DNA of 64,000 bases from Asaia krungthepensis NRIC 0535 (lineage in GTDB: Bacteria; Pseudomonadota; Alphaproteobacteria; Acetobacterales; Acetobacteraceae). Position numbers and translations under genes: made by a program. This document shows positions 1-7,441 of the stretch, piece after piece (positions within the stretch are counted from its first letter, which is position 1; every line of letters begins with the position of its first letter). The notes under the pieces are model-generated. The model was not told where the DNA came from, did no database searches, and was given only the letters and a program-made list of their open reading frames with translations. Location of the stretch: NCBI RefSeq assembly GCF_025995175.1, contig NZ_BAPV01000060.1:1-64000 (forward strand). The letters run 5' to 3'.

Positions 1-2961
1 TTCGGCGGCTCTGCGACACTCGACCCAAACGCTCTGATCAAGGGACAACCCAATGTCTACGGGTCTCTCTCGGGTGGCTTGGCCTCAGGCGGATTTATCG
101 TTGTCCGCATACAATCCGGCGGCTCGGTCTCCGGTGTCAGAACGAGCGCGCAGGGTGGGATCTATGTATCGAGCGGCGGCACGCTAACTGGCGCTACAGC
201 CCTCTCGGGGGGCACCATCTGGACCTATTCCGGCGGTACGAGTTTCAACACGCAGATCCAGGCTGGGGGCGATGGATCAGTTTATGCGGGCGGTACCGAG
301 ATCATTGTAAACGGCACCGGTTCAGGTTTCACGGCCAATGGGGCAGGCTTTGGCTCCGGTGGCGGCAACGCCGCCGGTAACGGCGCCATCCTGATCGGGA
401 GCGGCGGCACCGGCCTCAGCGAGACCGTCAATGGCGGCTACATGGCCGTGCAGGGCGCCGGCGCCGTCTCGCGCGATGCTGTCATCACGGGCGATGGCTG
501 GCAGGATATCGGCTATAACAACCGCACCGGTGCCGCAGGAGGCGGTGTCGCCTCCGGCACCATCCTGCGTAATGCCAAGCAGTTCATCAGCTCCGGGGGA
601 TCAGCCGCGGACACGGTAATTTCCGCGGGCGGTACGGAAGTCATCTCCACAGGGGGAAGAGCCAACAACACCGTCATTAATTCCGGGGGCTCCGTCTCCG
701 TCCTCGGCGGCGGTTACGCGCAGAACGCAACTGTAAGCTCCGGCGGTACCCTGACCGGTGCCAGTGGTGCCACCCTCGACGGCGGCACCATTTCTGGCGG
801 GGGGACGGCAACACTCGATCCGAATACGCTCATCACGAGCCAACCGACCGTGTATGGCACACTCAATGGAGGCTTGGTTTCAGGAAATCTAGCAGTTGCG
901 TTGATCAAATCTGGCGGCGTGGCGAATAATGTATCCGCCACTGCCAGCGGTGCCGTCTCCGTATCGAACGGAGGTTTAACAAGCGGGACTACCATACTCT
1001 CAGGCGGTACAATCGTAGTTTACTCCGGCGGCACGAGCATCAACACGCAGGTCAGAACCGGCGGGGTCGGGCAAGTATCACCGGGAGGTACTGAGACCAT
1101 CGTAAACGGCACCGGTTCGGGCATGACCGCATTTGGCTCGGGAATTGGCGATGGGTCCGGCGATAACCGAGGTGTTGGTGCCATTCTGATCGGCAGTGGT
1201 GGCACCGGCATCGGCGAGACTGTGAGTGGCGGCTACTTGGCCGTGCAGGGCACCGGCGCCGTTTCGCGCGATGCTGTCATCACAGCAAATGGCTGGCAGG
1301 ATATCGGCAACAACAATCGCACCGGTGCCGCAGGAGGCGGTGTTGCCTCCGGTACCATCCTGCGCAATGCCAAGCAGTTCGTCTGGTCCGGGGGTTCAGC
1401 CGCCAACACCGTTATTTCCGCAGGCGGCACTGAAACAGTTTTCGGGGGTGGTACAAGTCTCACCCCTGTGGTTAGCCTTGGTGGCCAGGTCGGCGTCAAC
1501 AGCGGCGGCACGTTGCAAGGAGGCAGCGTGCTTTCCGGAGGATCTGTTACGATCAATCAAGGAGGGAAGCTTACAGGTGCGTTGGACCTCTCTGCGGGCG
1601 CGAATGCGATGCTGGATGGGGGTGCCGGAGGCACAGTCAATCTTGCGGGTGACAGCTACACCAAACTGACCGTAACCGGCACGGGGAGCCCTTCGACGGT
1701 TCTTGCCGGGTTCAATGGCACAAAATCAGGTCAATCCGACCAGATCGTTCTGAGTGATATCAAGCATAGCGACATACTGAGTGTCAGTTATCCAGATGAT
1801 GACCACGTGACGCTGCACCTGAGAAGCGGGGGAACGTTCACAATGTCTATCCCGGGTGTCAAGAAGCAAGGCTACACCCTCAGTGATGGTCCCAACGGCT
1901 CGACGCTTTACGAGGTATGCTTCCTACCCGGGACGATGATTGAAACGCCCAATGGGCCGCGGGCAGTGGAAAAGCTGAGCACCGGGGACGAAATCTTGGT
2001 GTCTGTCGATGGAAAACGTTTTCCTGAAAAAATCGTCTTTATCGGCAAAGGGCATGTGGTCTGCGACGATGTACGCCTCATCGACGAAGCCGGCTATCCC
2101 GTGCGGGTCAAAGCGGGCGCGCTCGATCTGAATGTTCCTGCGAAGGATCTCCTAATCACGCCCGAACACTGCCTGTTCATTGACGGTGTCTTCATCCCGG
2201 TACGTATGCTTGTGAACGGGGTGAGCATTCTTTACGATCGCACTTTCGAGCAATACGACTACTATCATGTCGAAACAGAACGCCATTCGGTCATCATCGC
2301 TAACGGTGCCCTGACTGAGAGCTATCTCGATACCGGCAATCGCGAACGGTTCATTCTTGAGAACATCGCCGAGCGGAACAACGCTCTGCCGCGTAAAACC
2401 TGGGCCCGGGATGCTGCGGCTCCGTTAGCCACATCGAGCGAGTTCATTGAGGAAGTCTGGCACCGCCTCCGTGGGCACGCTGGTATCCGCATCCAAACTC
2501 GGCATGATCTAAGTTCCGAGGCGGGCATACATCTCATTACCAGGGACGGTCGGAGGCTGTGGCCGAGCCGACGTGACGAAGCACGCTATATCTTCGACGT
2601 TCCTCCGCAATACCGCGAGGTGTATATCGCCTCCGCGACAATGCGACCCAGTGACATTATAGGGCCGTTTGTTGACGACAGACGCGTCCTGGGCGTTCTG
2701 GTAGGTGCTATCGAGATCTATGATTACGACACGTATCGCATGCATGACGATCATTTGCGCATGCCAGATTTGCCTGGCTGGGGCGCCCTCGATCAGCCCT
2801 CGTTCAGATGGACGGTCGGCTCAGGGCTGCTGACGCTTGGAATATCGCAATCGCGCATTGATCGCATTGTGGCGGTCGAAATTGCCTCCTCGGTCGATTA
2901 CGAAATGACAGAGACAAGTCTGGCTTACACACAGCATTGCCTCTCATCTTTAAGGGCCTGA
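1..2961 (+). CDS. Partial AIDA-repeat secreted protein with C-terminal Hint domain
   Basis: The frame is open to the window edge, so the 5' end is missing; a TTG at 79 is only an internal codon. About 540 visible residues are strand-loop-strand repeats rich in SGG and GGT, as in AIDA-type autotransporter passengers. A Hint_2-type domain follows: the nucleophile-like Cys (CFLPGT) is at nt 1918-1920, the TxxH block (TPEH) ends with His at nt 2167-2169, and the C-terminal ANG motif lies near nt 2300, followed by ESYLDTGNR. The last 165 residues or so (nt 2450-2940) form a separate domain with VDDRRVLGV, LPGWGALD and RIVAVEI motifs. No beta-barrel translocator is visible, so this is not a classical autotransporter. 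By family, such proteins are surface or secreted adhesins, and Hint may self-cleave. The next two genes resemble its C-terminal parts. Family call is firm; function is inferred. Confidence 0.85.
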   Translation, partial: FGGSATLDPNALIKGQPNVYGSLSGGLASGGFIVVRIQSGGSVSGVRTSAQGGIYVSSGGTLTGATALSGGTIWTYSGGTSFNTQIQAGGDGSVYAGGTEIIVNGTGSGFTANGAGFGSGGGNAAGNGAILIGSGGTGLSETVNGGYMAVQGAGAVSRDAVITGDGWQDIGYNNRTGAAGGGVASGTILRNAKQFISSGGSAADTVISAGGTEVISTGGRANNTVINSGGSVSVLGGGYAQNATVSSGGTLTGASGATLDGGTISGGGTATLDPNTLITSQPTVYGTLNGGLVSGNLAVALIKSGGVANNVSATASGAVSVSNGGLTSGTTILSGGTIVVYSGGTSINTQVRTGGVGQVSPGGTETIVNGTGSGMTAFGSGIGDGSGDNRGVGAILIGSGGTGIGETVSGGYLAVQGTGAVSRDAVITANGWQDIGNNNRTGAAGGGVASGTILRNAKQFVWSGGSAANTVISAGGTETVFGGGTSLTPVVSLGGQVGVNSGGTLQGGSVLSGGSVTINQGGKLTGALDLSAGANAMLDGGAGGTVNLAGDSYTKLTVTGTGSPSTVLAGFNGTKSGQSDQIVLSDIKHSDILSVSYPDDDHVTLHLRSGGTFTMSIPGVKKQGYTLSDGPNGSTLYEVCFLPGTMIETPNGPRAVEKLSTGDEILVSVDGKRFPEKIVFIGKGHVVCDDVRLIDEAGYPVRVKAGALDLNVPAKDLLITPEHCLFIDGVFIPVRMLVNGVSILYDRTFEQYDYYHVETERHSVIIANGALTESYLDTGNRERFILENIAERNNALPRKTWARDAAAPLATSSEFIEEVWHRLRGHAGIRIQTRHDLSSEAGIHLITRDGRRLWPSRRDEARYIFDVPPQYREVYIASATMRPSDIIGPFVDDRRVLGVLVGAIEIYDYDTYRMHDDHLRMPDLPGWGALDQPSFRWTVGSGLLTLGISQSRIDRIVAVEIASSVDYEMTETSLAYTQHCLSSLRA
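13..1440 (+). repeat. Two long direct repeats (795-bp period) in the AIDA passenger
   Basis: The codons for ATLDPN occur at nt 13 and again at nt 808, and the following sequence matches at an offset of 795 bp (265 residues), with near identity around 448-600 and 1243-1395. Similarity fades after about 1440. This is an in-frame internal duplication, and the number of copies upstream of the window is unknown. The period is an exact multiple of three, as expected for expansion or contraction of a passenger without loss of frame. Confidence 0.85.
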
Positions 2962-2962
2962 A

Positions 2963-3460
2963 ATGATGATCATCGATGAAAATCTTGAGGCAATCAGAAG
3001 CATTTATCTCGATATTCTGGCAAGAACCCCACCCGTCGGCTCACGTCCAAAATTCAGCACGGACCCACAAGTCTACCTCGAGACAGACACCGGAAAGACA
3101 ATCAACCCAAGTAGATCAACATCGAAATACACCATATTTAGCATCGGACACGATGTAAAAAGGACTGCCATACTGAGATCCAGAACCTTCCGGCGCTATG
3201 AGACAGTTGGAGCCTATACGGATGACACCCGACTTCTCGGCGTAAAAATTGGGGAGATACTTCTTTTCGGCCCCAACAAAACCACGTCGGAAGATAAACA
3301 CCTCCGTTCGAAGTATCTTCCGGGTTGGCATCAGATAGACAGCCCGGCCAGCCGCTGGACCAATGGTGCTGCCTGCCTTTCCCTGAATGAAAGCTGCAAT
3401 CATTTCAGCCGAATTCTCGCCGTTGAAATCACAGAGACTGGCCAATACGCCATCGATTAG
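2963..3460 (+). CDS. Small protein homologous to the C-terminal domain of the upstream Hint protein
   Basis: This 165-residue protein starts one base after the TGA of the Hint gene (ATG at 2963; 2966 is an alternative), so it is probably cotranslated. It has no signal peptide or membrane segment. It aligns with the last 110 residues or so of the upstream protein: TDDTRLLGVKIGEI matches VDDRRVLGVLVGAI, LPGWHQID matches LPGWGALD, SRWT matches FRWT, and RILAVEI matches RIVAVEI. It therefore looks like a detached duplicate of that domain. Function is unknown. A partner, a modulator of the large protein, or a decaying duplicate are all possible. Its base composition is less GC-rich than the parent domain. 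I do not recognise a named family. Confidence 0.75.
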   Translation: MMIIDENLEAIRSIYLDILARTPPVGSRPKFSTDPQVYLETDTGKTINPSRSTSKYTIFSIGHDVKRTAILRSRTFRRYETVGAYTDDTRLLGVKIGEILLFGPNKTTSEDKHLRSKYLPGWHQIDSPASRWTNGAACLSLNESCNHFSRILAVEITETGQYAID

Positions 3461-3475
3461 AATGAAAAGAGAATA

Positions 3476-3904
3476 ATGCCGTTTGTCCTGAGTGATGTTC
3501 CGATGTCCCTTCTAAATGCAGAGGGACACAGCATCTTTGTGAGTGAACTCACGGTCGGCGCGCAGCTACTCTCGCTCCACGACCATAAAATCAGAAACGA
3601 TTTCGTCTCATGGGTCGGTGGGTATCGCGTCAAAGTCGATGAGTCTCTCCCCGACGTCTTGGCGGGATATCCAGTACGTATTCGCAAAAATGCGATCGCG
3701 GAACAGATACCGTGCGCCGATCTCCTGGTCACGGCCAGTCATGAGATCTTTATCGACAATCTTTTCATTCCGATAAGGCGTCTCGTGAACGGTGTGAGTA
3801 TCTATTTCGATACTGACTACACAAGCTATGTAGCCAGGTCATTTGCCTTACGTGAGACAATCATCGTCGTCGTAAACGGGATTGCCCTGAAAGCCAAATC
3901 CTAG
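3476..3904 (+). CDS. Stand-alone degenerate Hint-domain protein lacking the catalytic cysteine
   Basis: This 142-residue protein starts at an ATG 15 bp after the previous stop, behind an AAAGAGA stretch that could be a weak ribosome site. It aligns across almost its whole length with the Hint domain of the first gene: GYPVRIRKNAI matches GYPVRVKAGAL, DLLVTASHEIFID matches DLLITPEHCLFID, FIPIRRLVNGVSI matches FIPVRMLVNGVSI, and VVVNGIAL matches VIIANGAL. The position of the nucleophile Cys is a Leu (about residue 5) and the His before the last strand is lost, while the TxxH block is kept as TASH. Self-splicing or cleavage should therefore be impossible. It may be a non-catalytic partner of, or a relic from, the neighbouring Hint gene. 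Confidence 0.72.
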   Translation: MPFVLSDVPMSLLNAEGHSIFVSELTVGAQLLSLHDHKIRNDFVSWVGGYRVKVDESLPDVLAGYPVRIRKNAIAEQIPCADLLVTASHEIFIDNLFIPIRRLVNGVSIYFDTDYTSYVARSFALRETIIVVVNGIALKAKS

Positions 3905-4399: not shown

Positions 4400-5635
4400 A
4401 TGGTGGAAATACAAAAGTGCCCAGCTCATCCTGGGGCTCTGACAAGGCGCAAAGCCTTGTCTCTCGGCAATGCTGTAGTGGGCGCATCGCTTCTTGCCTC
4501 GCTCTCGCGCGCACACGCCGCGCCATCGGCAGACTCAGTGATCGCGCCCCCCAGCGTCGTGAGTTCCCCACCCCGGATCTGGGGGCCCGAGGCTCCGGTG
4601 GCGTTCACGCCCGACCCGGATATCCTGTTTTACGATCCCTCATTTTCGACGGTCATTCTCGATAATGCGCCGCTCGTTCAGGCCTGGAAGGGCAAGGCGC
4701 TTTGGCTTGAAGGGCCGGCATGGTCCAGCGACGGGCGGTTTCTCATCACCAGCGACGTGATGGGCAGCACCCAGTACCGCTACCTGCCTGAGGAACGCTG
4801 CATGACGGTGTTTCGCAAGGAGAGCTATCACTCCAACGGCAATACCTTCGACCGTGAGGGGCGTCTGATCACCTGTGAGCACGGCATGCGTCGCGTCATT
4901 CGCTGGGAGCATGATGGACGCTGCACGATCCTGGCCGAAAGCTTCGAGGGCAAGCGGTTAAATTCCCCCAATGATATCGTGGTGGATGCCCAGGGCGGCA
5001 TCTGGTTTACCGATCCGCCCTATGGCGACAGACTCTGGGAAGGACATCCCGATGCCCCCCAGGACGGCAAGCCGACCAAGGGCAATCTGACCTGGAATCT
5101 CGATCTGGAGGCGACCGAACAGCTTGGCGGTCAGGCGGGTCAGGAGACCCATGTGTTTCATCTTGATCCGGAAACCCGCAAGCTCAGTAGTGTACTCACA
5201 GGTGCTGAGCTTTCCGGACCAAACGGGCTCTGTTTCTCACCCGACCAGAAAACGCTCTATATCGTCTCGAGTGAGAAGGGCGCACGCCGTCCCAAGGGCG
5301 GCGGCTACCGCAATATCTATGCCTTCGACGTGCAAAATGCTGCCCTCTCGAACCAGCGTGTCTTTGCTGACATGACCCTTGCAGGTCAGAAACTGATGCC
5401 CGATGGCATCAAGGCCGACCGCATGGGCAATCTCTGGGTGGCGGCCAATGGCCCGCTCGGGCTGTGCGGCGTGTTCATCTATAACCCCGCAGGCAAGATG
5501 ATCGGGCGGCTGCGTCTGCCACGCAGTGTGTCCAACCTGACATTCGGGGGTACGCAGCGCGATCGCCTGTTCATGTGTGCGGAAAATACGATCTTCACAC
5601 TCGACGTCGCCACGCAGGGAGCTGGATTGTCATGA
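4400..5635 (+). CDS. Tat-exported SMP-30/gluconolactonase-family lactonase
   Basis: A protein of 411 residues of the SMP-30/gluconolactonase/LRE-like beta-propeller family, which hydrolyses sugar lactones or related esters. The frame is open from 4289, but the upstream part looks non-coding. ATG at 4400 gives a twin-arginine leader (TRRKALSLG, a hydrophobic stretch, then RAHA before the mature start near residue 40). Family motifs seen are LEGPAW, NSPNDIVVDAQGGIWFTDPPYG and PDGIKADRMGNLWVA, which carry the usual metal-binding Glu, Asn and Asp. A periplasmic location fits the sugar-oxidising life of acetic acid bacteria, where lactones arise outside the cytoplasm; the substrate is not known. 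The stop overlaps the next start in ATGA, so the two are translationally coupled. Confidence 0.85.
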   Translation: MVEIQKCPAHPGALTRRKALSLGNAVVGASLLASLSRAHAAPSADSVIAPPSVVSSPPRIWGPEAPVAFTPDPDILFYDPSFSTVILDNAPLVQAWKGKALWLEGPAWSSDGRFLITSDVMGSTQYRYLPEERCMTVFRKESYHSNGNTFDREGRLITCEHGMRRVIRWEHDGRCTILAESFEGKRLNSPNDIVVDAQGGIWFTDPPYGDRLWEGHPDAPQDGKPTKGNLTWNLDLEATEQLGGQAGQETHVFHLDPETRKLSSVLTGAELSGPNGLCFSPDQKTLYIVSSEKGARRPKGGGYRNIYAFDVQNAALSNQRVFADMTLAGQKLMPDGIKADRMGNLWVAANGPLGLCGVFIYNPAGKMIGRLRLPRSVSNLTFGGTQRDRLFMCAENTIFTLDVATQGAGLS

Positions 5636-6840
5636 CCTCTTTTTTCAAGACCCTTACCCTCTCGGCCTGCATCGCTGGCGCAGGGCTCGCTCCTTTCGGC
5701 TCGAGCCCAGCCGCTTACGCCGCGACCTCGGCCTCCCCGGAACAGCCCGCACTCGAGGTGGTCAAACGCTTCCCGTCCGATTTCAACATGATCGGCGTGG
5801 CTGTGTCCCGTTCAGGCCTCGTCTATGCCTCTGCCCCCGCCACCATGAAGCGCTACAGCGCCAGCGTGGTCCGCATCGACCCGAAAACCGGCGCGCTCGT
5901 ACCGTTTCCGGATGCCAACTGGAACCGGTTCGAGCCCAAGCCGGTCAATCGCGAACTCTGGGTTTCCGTTCCCGCACTTTGGGTGGACGATGAGAACCAT
6001 CTCTGGGTGCTGGATTCTTCCCTCCCCTCGGTGGACCAGAAAGCCCTGCCCCCCAAGCTCGCAGAGTTCGATGCCGAGACGGGAAGGCTGATTCAGATCT
6101 ATCATTTCGGTCCTGACATCACCCCTGAAGACTCCCTCAACGACGTACGTGTGGATACCCGCACGCGCACGGCCTACATCACCAATGAATGGGGACGTGG
6201 CGGGCTGGTAGTGATGGATCTCGACACCGGGGCCTATCGTCTGGTTCTGGCCAATACGCGCTCGGGCATCGCAGACCCGAAACAGCACCTTCATATCTAT
6301 GGCGAACTGGCGCGCAAAAAGGATGGCAGCCTGCCCGTCACGCAGGATGACGGGATTGCCCTCTCACCCGATCGTGCCTGGCTGTATTACCGCCCACTCA
6401 CCGATCATCATTACTGGCGCATCGCGACGGCCGATCTGCTCAACGCCCATCTGGGCGATGCCGATCTGGACAAGAAAGCACAATATCTCGGCCAGTCCGT
6501 CATGAGCGGCGGGATAGAAATGGATACCTGCAATCGGCTCTGGGTCGGCGATATCGAAAATCACGGGCTCTATGCCCTGACGCTGGCGGGAGACGAACCC
6601 AAGCTGCGCACCCGGAAAGTCTACGATAATCCCGCCGTGCTTGACTGGGCGGATGGGTTCGCGATTGCACAGGGCTGGCTTTATATCAGCGACTCCCGGC
6701 TCGATGAAATCGCGTTCCAGAATAGCCGCCCGCTTCAGGGGCCAACCACCATCTACCGTATGAAGCTGCCCCCCTGTCCGCCGACGACGGCACCCTCCTC
6801 GGCACCCGATGATACGGACACGGGCCATGCTAAGCGGTAA
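5632..6840 (+). CDS. Secreted Yellow/major royal jelly protein-family beta-propeller
   Basis: A protein of 402 residues with a Sec-type signal peptide (hydrophobic stretch ending AAYAATS near residue 30). The body reads as the Yellow/MRJP family: FPSDFNMIGVAVS, LWVLDSSLPS, LNDVRVDTRTRTAYITNEW, DGIALSPDRAWLYYRPLT, CNRLWVGDIENHGLY and a C-terminal WADGFAI. Bacterial members are a minority of this mainly insect family; some are annotated as dopachrome-tautomerase related, but no enzymatic activity can be assigned here. The start ATG overlaps the lactonase stop (5632-5635), so two periplasmic propellers are made together, suggesting a shared periplasmic substrate. Confident on family, open on function. 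Confidence 0.8.
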   Translation: MTSFFKTLTLSACIAGAGLAPFGSSPAAYAATSASPEQPALEVVKRFPSDFNMIGVAVSRSGLVYASAPATMKRYSASVVRIDPKTGALVPFPDANWNRFEPKPVNRELWVSVPALWVDDENHLWVLDSSLPSVDQKALPPKLAEFDAETGRLIQIYHFGPDITPEDSLNDVRVDTRTRTAYITNEWGRGGLVVMDLDTGAYRLVLANTRSGIADPKQHLHIYGELARKKDGSLPVTQDDGIALSPDRAWLYYRPLTDHHYWRIATADLLNAHLGDADLDKKAQYLGQSVMSGGIEMDTCNRLWVGDIENHGLYALTLAGDEPKLRTRKVYDNPAVLDWADGFAIAQGWLYISDSRLDEIAFQNSRPLQGPTTIYRMKLPPCPPTTAPSSAPDDTDTGHAKR

Positions 6841-6859
6841 TGAGCGTGTCGCATTGGTC

Positions 6860-7441
6860 ATGACCGGCATCAAGCCGCACAGCATGTCTCCCTTCGATAC
6901 GAGGGGGAAAACGACCATCCTCAGCCCATGTGCCCCTCCCTCGCTGCCACGCATGCTCTGGGCCGGGTTCGTGGGCGGGAATATCGCGAGTTTTGTGAAA
7001 TGGGGGACAGAAATGCCGCTTCCGCCCCGCACCCCAGACCGACCAAGCCCTCCTGCGGAAATGCTGCGGGATTTCGGCGTCTCGGTCGATCACCTCGTTT
7101 ACAGCTATTCAGGACATCTGGTGCAGGGTGGCGTGCTTCTGGTGCATCATTTGTTTTCGATCGTGTTCGCCCTGCTTTATTGCGTGCTCTGTCGGTTCTG
7201 CCCGCGCATCGCTCTCGCCCAGGGTCTGGCTTTCGGTCTCGTCGTCACGATCCTTTTTCACGGCGTCGTGCTTCCAATGGGGCAATGGGCACCGCCACTC
7301 TGGGCACTTCCGCCCGCGGAAATCATGTCCGAAACCCTGGGTCATCTTCTCTGGGCCTGGGTGATCGATCTGGTGCGACGAGAGATCATGGGAGCGTCGC
7401 TGCCGCGCGCCTCGGCAGAGGTCAGCTCCGGCACTCTCTGA
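6860..7441 (+). CDS. YagU-like (DUF1440) inner-membrane protein
   Basis: The core matches the E. coli YagU family: AGFVGGNIASFVKWGTEMPLPP near the start, then SGHLVQGGVLLVHHLFSIVFALLYCV, and SETLGHLLWAWVIDLVRRE at the end. About four hydrophobic segments are seen. YagU is an inner-membrane protein reported to contribute to acid resistance, which would suit an acid-producing host, but that role is inference here. The start is unsure: 6860 is chosen, with ATG codons at 6809, 6827, 6884 and 6953 as alternatives and no good ribosome site at any. It follows the Yellow-family gene closely and may share its transcript. Confidence 0.75.
   Translation: MTGIKPHSMSPFDTRGKTTILSPCAPPSLPRMLWAGFVGGNIASFVKWGTEMPLPPRTPDRPSPPAEMLRDFGVSVDHLVYSYSGHLVQGGVLLVHHLFSIVFALLYCVLCRFCPRIALAQGLAFGLVVTILFHGVVLPMGQWAPPLWALPPAEIMSETLGHLLWAWVIDLVRREIMGASLPRASAEVSSGTL

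Follow-up and report, generated by a model that had tools for sequence, protein, structure and literature searches.

A stand-alone, degenerate Hint domain downstream of an adhesin-like gene in Asaia krungthepensis NRIC 0535, probably a remnant of an older Hint adhesin gene

The window, a 64,000-nucleotide stretch of Asaia krungthepensis NRIC 0535 contig NZ_BAPV01000060.1, opens with a cluster of three genes, the last of which (gene 3) encodes a stand-alone, degenerate Hint domain of 142 amino acids. Gene 3 lies at 3476..3904 on the forward strand, with an ATG at 3476 and a stop codon ending at 3904. We consider it a degenerate Hint_2 domain, probably what remains, as a coding sequence, of an earlier Hint adhesin gene. 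The observations behind this reading are homology, a predicted fold, loss of catalytic residues, the absence of orthologs from the samples searched, and an island that faces an empty site in related genomes; we infer that gene 3 has no selected role.

By sequence and predicted fold, gene 3 is a Hint domain, and the alignment to this domain proposed in the initial annotation holds. The protein matched the Pfam family Hint_2 (PF13403) at E 4.6e-11 (43.7 bits vs. a gathering threshold of 28.4) over profile positions 16–139 of 147. BLASTP aligned it without gaps to the Hint domain of the big adhesin-like protein of the cluster (41/128 identical, E 5e-21). An AlphaFold2 model based on 56 relatives adopted a Hint fold (pLDDT 89, pTM 0.81), a confidence that is aided by the alignment of relatives and counts as support, not proof. 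Foldseek gave 23 matches at E ≤0.001, of which the best was a ciliate BIL domain; the others included inteins, a bacterial BIL domain and Hedgehog (named matches: BIL domains 6tmm and 2lwy, Hedgehog 1at0). BIL domains and the Hedgehog Hog domain are nucleophile-bearing autoprocessing domains within larger proteins, so gene 3 resembles them in fold but differs in this respect. With the Hint_2 adhesin-like proteins of acetic acid bacteria it shares the core, the TxxH motif, length, predicted fold, genome and island, whereas it stands alone and has no Cys1, no repeats and no C-terminal domain, and has lost the block-F His and the tail.

The nucleophile Cys1 is indeed missing, but the Leu reported at its position was not recovered. 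Ser6 (codon 3491..3493, forward strand) occupies this position according to BLASTP, three MAFFT alignments and the strand register of two AlphaFold models, in which most gene 3 strands equal those of the big protein shifted by +1; one smaller MAFFT alignment gave Phe3. The same column contains Cys in 121/123 other Hint rows, with one Ala, one gap and no Ser. The block-B TxxH is retained as T86-A-S-H89 (3731..3742, forward strand), its T being present in 121/123 other rows and its H in all 123. In agreement with the initial annotation, which had found the later His lacking, the block-F His residues (123/123 and 122/123 other rows) are replaced by Ser and Thr. Block A has changed at its mostly-G, T, G, E and D positions and retains one V and one G. 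The Asp of GD is absent from gene 3 in the alignment with 123 other Hint rows, and alignment column 169, which is Glu in 123/123 of them, is Lys in gene 3, with the remainder of the ESYLDTGNR tail absent. The sole Cys of the protein is Cys81, and block F contains none. Five residues precede Ser6, and the polypeptide has neither a passenger before the Hint domain nor a C-domain behind it.

These losses are unevenly spread. Gene 3 keeps 27 of 59 conserved columns (conservation threshold, ≥80% of 119 reference rows); the reference rows themselves keep a minimum share of 0.63 and a median of 0.95. The core keeps 24/29 and the catalytic edges 3/30 (Fisher p 1e-8), with the line between core and edge drawn once the pattern was known and 8 of the 30 edge columns belonging to the absent tail. 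The retention of TxxH and of the core, as initially described, is borne out. Among other low rows, L114 also keeps 27 columns but is cut by the locus edge, and the Ala1 row L019:2966 keeps 39. Conservation in gene 3 falls sharply outside approximately residues 44–118, and no restored homology in another frame was seen by eye at the ends of the gene.

Judged by its residues, gene 3 is most likely catalytically inactive. It would be unable to autoprocess because Cys1 is Ser, block A is mostly changed, the block-F His and tail are gone, and passenger and C-domain are both lacking. If translated, its product would be a small, presumably cytoplasmic protein with a Hint scaffold and no autoprocessing. 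The absence of Cys1 need not in itself mean inactivity, as class 2 and class 3 inteins have no N-terminal Cys/Ser; a class 3 intein, however, needs a Trp-Cys-Thr (WCT) motif with its Cys in block F (both points from PMC7664689). As gene 3 lacks a Cys in block F, a class 3 intein was rejected. Other Hint-like groups are treated in section 12 of PMC2362128. A narrow literature search covering few subscription journals found no report of Hint_2 proteins of acetic acid bacteria that stand alone or are inactive.

The first gene of the cluster is the 3′ part of a big adhesin-like gene (1..2961, forward strand), as the contig start falls inside it. Its product carries AIDA / strand-loop-strand repeats (Pfam PF16168, AIDA-type) and, behind them, a Hint_2 domain (PF13403, E 1.2e-34; aa 639–778, 1915..2334, forward strand) in which Cys1, TxxH and the block-F His are all present, followed by a C-terminal domain (2401..2958, forward strand). 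The 5′ part of the gene is on contig C58 (L044:9425 to the end), the last 62 bases of which are all identical to the first 62 of the window. This 5′ part also matched TIGR04415 (O_hepto_targRPT, a strand-loop-strand repeat family) with 33.9 bits vs. a cut-off of 30. The island contains a fourth small ORF, an orphan of 166 aa (L044:8858-9358), which precedes the big gene on the adjoining contig. It had no match in 8 other genomes of the genus, and a two-sequence comparison gave weak similarity to the N-terminal region of the big protein (E 7e-5).

The domain behind Hint_2 had no match in Pfam or NCBIfam. It is approximately 180 aa long, is conserved behind Hint_2 in acetic acid bacteria (window:2401-2958, L049-L128), and carries the motifs GPFVDDRR, GW and RWT. 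An AlphaFold model of the Hint and C-domain together reached pLDDT 92.7. Compared with solved structures, all 10 matches of this model with E ≤0.001 were BIL domains and inteins that fit the Hint half, and no convincing PDB match covering the C-domain was found among the 50 of 877 matches listed. When the Hint-C profile was searched against the sequences of solved structures, two chains were returned, both Hint-fold. The position of the C-domain behind Hint presumably resembles the acceptor-/sterol-recognition region of Hedgehog proteins.

Gene 2 (2963..3460, forward strand) encodes a stand-alone C-domain of 165 aa and starts 1 base past the stop codon of the big gene. It shares 47/136 residues with the big protein's C-terminal domain (E 6e-22) and keeps 29/50 conserved columns, with losses mostly N-terminal. 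Its TAG stop codon (3458..3460, forward strand) lies within one continuous reading frame, five codons ahead of the gene 3 ATG, giving spacings of 1 and then 15 bases in the cluster; for two genes to share one frame, the chance expectation is 1 in 3. The initial annotation had described the C-terminal half of the big protein as represented again in two small genes. This stands as far as homology goes, but the two small genes run C-domain first and Hint second, opposite to the big protein, and they did not arise by recent copying of that protein's own half. This follows from the longest exact word shared with the Hint-C stretch of the big gene, 10 bp (blastn found no significant match, best E 0.14), and from the nearest tree rows of gene 3, which lie elsewhere. 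Overall identity between gene 3 and its paralogs is approximately 22–37%, at which synonymous sites must be saturated. The gene 3 end branch was the longest of 123 Hint rows (4.91 vs. a median of 0.25). Neither gene 2 nor gene 3 had a supported placement in the trees, which were computed without the edge row L114 (Hint) and without four rows from broken genes (C-domain). Both small genes have lost residues at the Hint/C-domain junction. PADLOC gave no defence-system match for three small proteins.

The big gene and both small genes are part of an island of 7.06 kb (L044:7949 to window 4506), which stands in place of 534 bases in the nearest congener, G008, where the flanks are 94.8 and 94.7% identical. 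The left edge falls at L044:7948/7949 and the right edge at 4506..4507 of the window (forward strand). Both flanks lie close together in five further congeners, and no Hint match occurred at the island site in the 6 congeners compared, G008 included; these are 6 of 8, as G001 and G006 showed no close copy of the right-hand gene. In 500-base steps, island GC was 0.40–0.57 outside the repeats and 0.60–0.64 inside them, vs. 0.56–0.65 in the surroundings. The left flank holds what we take to be glycerol-utilisation-like genes and the right flank what appears to be an SMP-30/gluconolactonase-type gene. For the latter (window:4289-5635), congener DNA homology begins at 4507 (G008) or at 4541-4547 (five others). 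Given this late start, the island edge lies inside the 5′ part of the gene, the start of which differs from that of its relatives.

The initial annotation had singled out the three-gene cluster as a candidate undescribed system and had named lack of conservation as a sign of a pseudogene. The same gene order was not found in other genomes of the genus, family and order samples or in 112 loci, and conservation was lacking as far as these samples reach. Gene 3 had no ortholog among the genomes sampled from the genus (9), the family (299) and the order (395), and gene 2 had none among the 299 family or 395 order genomes (own genome included each time). Family and order samples were evenly drawn from larger groups and overlap, with at most 9–13 candidates scored per genome; the genus was searched with gene 3 at E 1e-25 and 1e-3. 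The 9 genus genomes contained 148 Hint matches at E 0.001, and the shortest open frame besides that of gene 3 (147 aa) was 292 aa. Strict matches to gene 3 occurred in 12/299 family genomes (1e-23) and 2/395 order genomes (1e-26), own included, and outside the own genome were only long-frame proteins of at least 372 aa. Gene 2 was alone in the 299 family genomes at 1e-25 and matched in 14/395 order genomes at 1e-24, where all others were frames of at least 503 aa. Searches of GTDB contigs and viral contigs gave no relative of gene 3, and a search of plasmid DNA gave none of gene 2 and gene 3 together. In plasmid protein searches, gene 3 matched 57 records and gene 2 matched 49, with the best place per record below 60% identity; among the matches listed (30 each), the annotation read Hint domain-containing protein or outer membrane protein.

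Single-domain ORFs are rare and mostly visible remnants. Scanning GTDB for the C-domain motif GPFVDDRR gave 395 confirmed places, and the best 80 of these, together with own-genome and other loci, make up the 112 loci; the 80 could miss Hint-only genes far from such a C-domain. Both Hint and C-domain were present in 121 ORFs and a single domain in nine: gene 2, gene 3, four frameshift pieces (L019:6810, L090 twice, L097:7703), the lone C-domains L025 and L075, and L114, an ORF cut by the locus edge. Gene 3 is the only Hint-only ORF in the 112 loci without a neighbouring frameshift or locus edge to explain it.

Gene 2 and gene 3 are best read together as what is left of Hint adhesin genes once arranged in tandem. 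The island may earlier have held such genes in tandem, as three other places in the own genome still do: paired Hint genes occur at L011, L012 and L019 (the last with one frameshifted), and also in some named loci, e.g., L082, L086 and L105. Within an array, each unit would close with its C-domain, and the next unit would follow. Deletions that removed the Hint of one unit and the C-domain of the next would leave a C-domain, a stop codon and a Hint. Gene 2 would then be the surviving 3′ end of one unit, and gene 3 the surviving Hint of its neighbour. Such a scenario would account for the reversed order, for how tightly the genes are spaced, and for breaks on either side that fall at the Hint/C-domain junction. 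The initial annotation had left open a regulator or decoy of Hint processing, a split arrangement and a decaying duplicate. The last fits best when modified to a degenerate remnant, whereas a split intein is unlikely, since gene 3 spans the core and both Hint edges and the big protein owns a complete Hint. As a remnant, gene 3 would illustrate the turnover of Hint adhesin genes in the islands and tandem arrays of acetic acid bacteria.

The state of the reading frame and of the core counts against a remnant. The gene 3 ORF is intact, with a start codon, a weak Shine-Dalgarno-like stretch (by eye) and a coding-type GC by codon position (0.56/0.36/0.59). In a neutral simulation from the Hint of the big protein, the gene 3 loss share (54% over 53 conserved positions in the span) was reached stop-free in only 369/20000 runs; this simulation is crude, allows substitutions only and no indels, and ignores a possible partial divergence of gene 3 while within an active protein. 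In addition, much of the core survives and the fold is modelled with confidence, whereas even decay, core included, would be expected of a plain remnant.

The same features would suit a selected pseudo-enzyme, an alternative that we regard as unlikely. Here, the gene 2 C-domain and the inactive gene 3 Hint would bind the Hint-C half of the big protein in trans and compete for the Hint/C-domain interface, thereby slowing or timing autoprocessing ahead of export. Operon-like spacing, intact ORFs, a core retained while the catalytic edges were lost, and the stop-free frame despite high divergence are all in its favor. The small genes and their order are not conserved in the samples searched, though, and in the 112 loci no other Hint+C-domain gene adjoins a stand-alone Hint, frameshift pieces apart. 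In addition, a competitor should retain the Hint/C-domain junction residues, which both small genes have lost. A selected role as an inactive partner of Hint processing is possible but unsupported. More specifically, it is improbable that two single-domain proteins, one of them a dead Hint, recreate the Hint/C-domain unit in trans, are translated together with the adhesin and gate the time or place of its self-cleavage. To our knowledge, there is no example of a pseudo-Hint regulator, and, if selected, an inactive Hint acting as a partner would be a use of the fold for which no precedent is known to us.

The sharp drop in conservation outside approximately residues 44–118 could also arise in a mosaic gene, in which illegitimate recombination joined a Hint core to unrelated ends. 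This appears distinctly improbable, as the match of 128 residues is ungapped and the predicted end strands keep the family register. A Hint that is still reactive through Ser6 as its nucleophile, with T86 and H89, in cis or in trans, is very unlikely. Ser6 does occupy the Cys1 position, and inteins are known to accept Ser1 in place of Cys1 (PMC7664689); against this, Ser occurs there in none of the 123 other Hint rows, gene 3 has lost the GD Asp, the two block-F His and the ESYLDTG tail, and only five residues precede Ser6. Silent cassettes recombining into the big gene are scarcely credible and were rejected: like the tpsC and mafB-CT cassettes of Neisseria (PMC4524018), the small genes are displaced 3′ modules behind a large repeat or Hint gene, here one whose product combines repeats, Hint and C-terminal domain, but they lack DNA identity with the expressed gene for recombination (10 bp the longest word; blastn best E 0.14), are degenerate and reversed in order, and represent a family-conserved domain rather than a variable toxin domain.

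Other Hint loci of the own genome also contain altered copies. The adhesin at L019:2966-4537 has Ala for Cys1 and HGGH for TxxH and adjoins a copy at 5668-7193 with a frameshifted C-domain, and L025:1567-2031 is a lone C-domain ORF of 155 aa, stop to stop, which is probably a remnant. One own-genome Hint locus was 86.9% identical over 4148 bases to Asaia sp. W19 (L107). Three TibC/Aah-type heptosyltransferases of the own genome scored above the curated cut-off (L129, L130, L131), and two of the three genes lie approximately 3 kb from a Hint adhesin pair on contig C61. On a Neokomagataea plasmid (L046), a heptosyltransferase gene adjoins a Hint adhesin. These neighbourhoods suggest O-heptosylated Hint adhesins. 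Small plasmids of Acetobacter and Commensalibacter (3.9 to 11 kb; L045, L047, L048) carry Hint adhesin genes as well, and one 11-kb plasmid has three.
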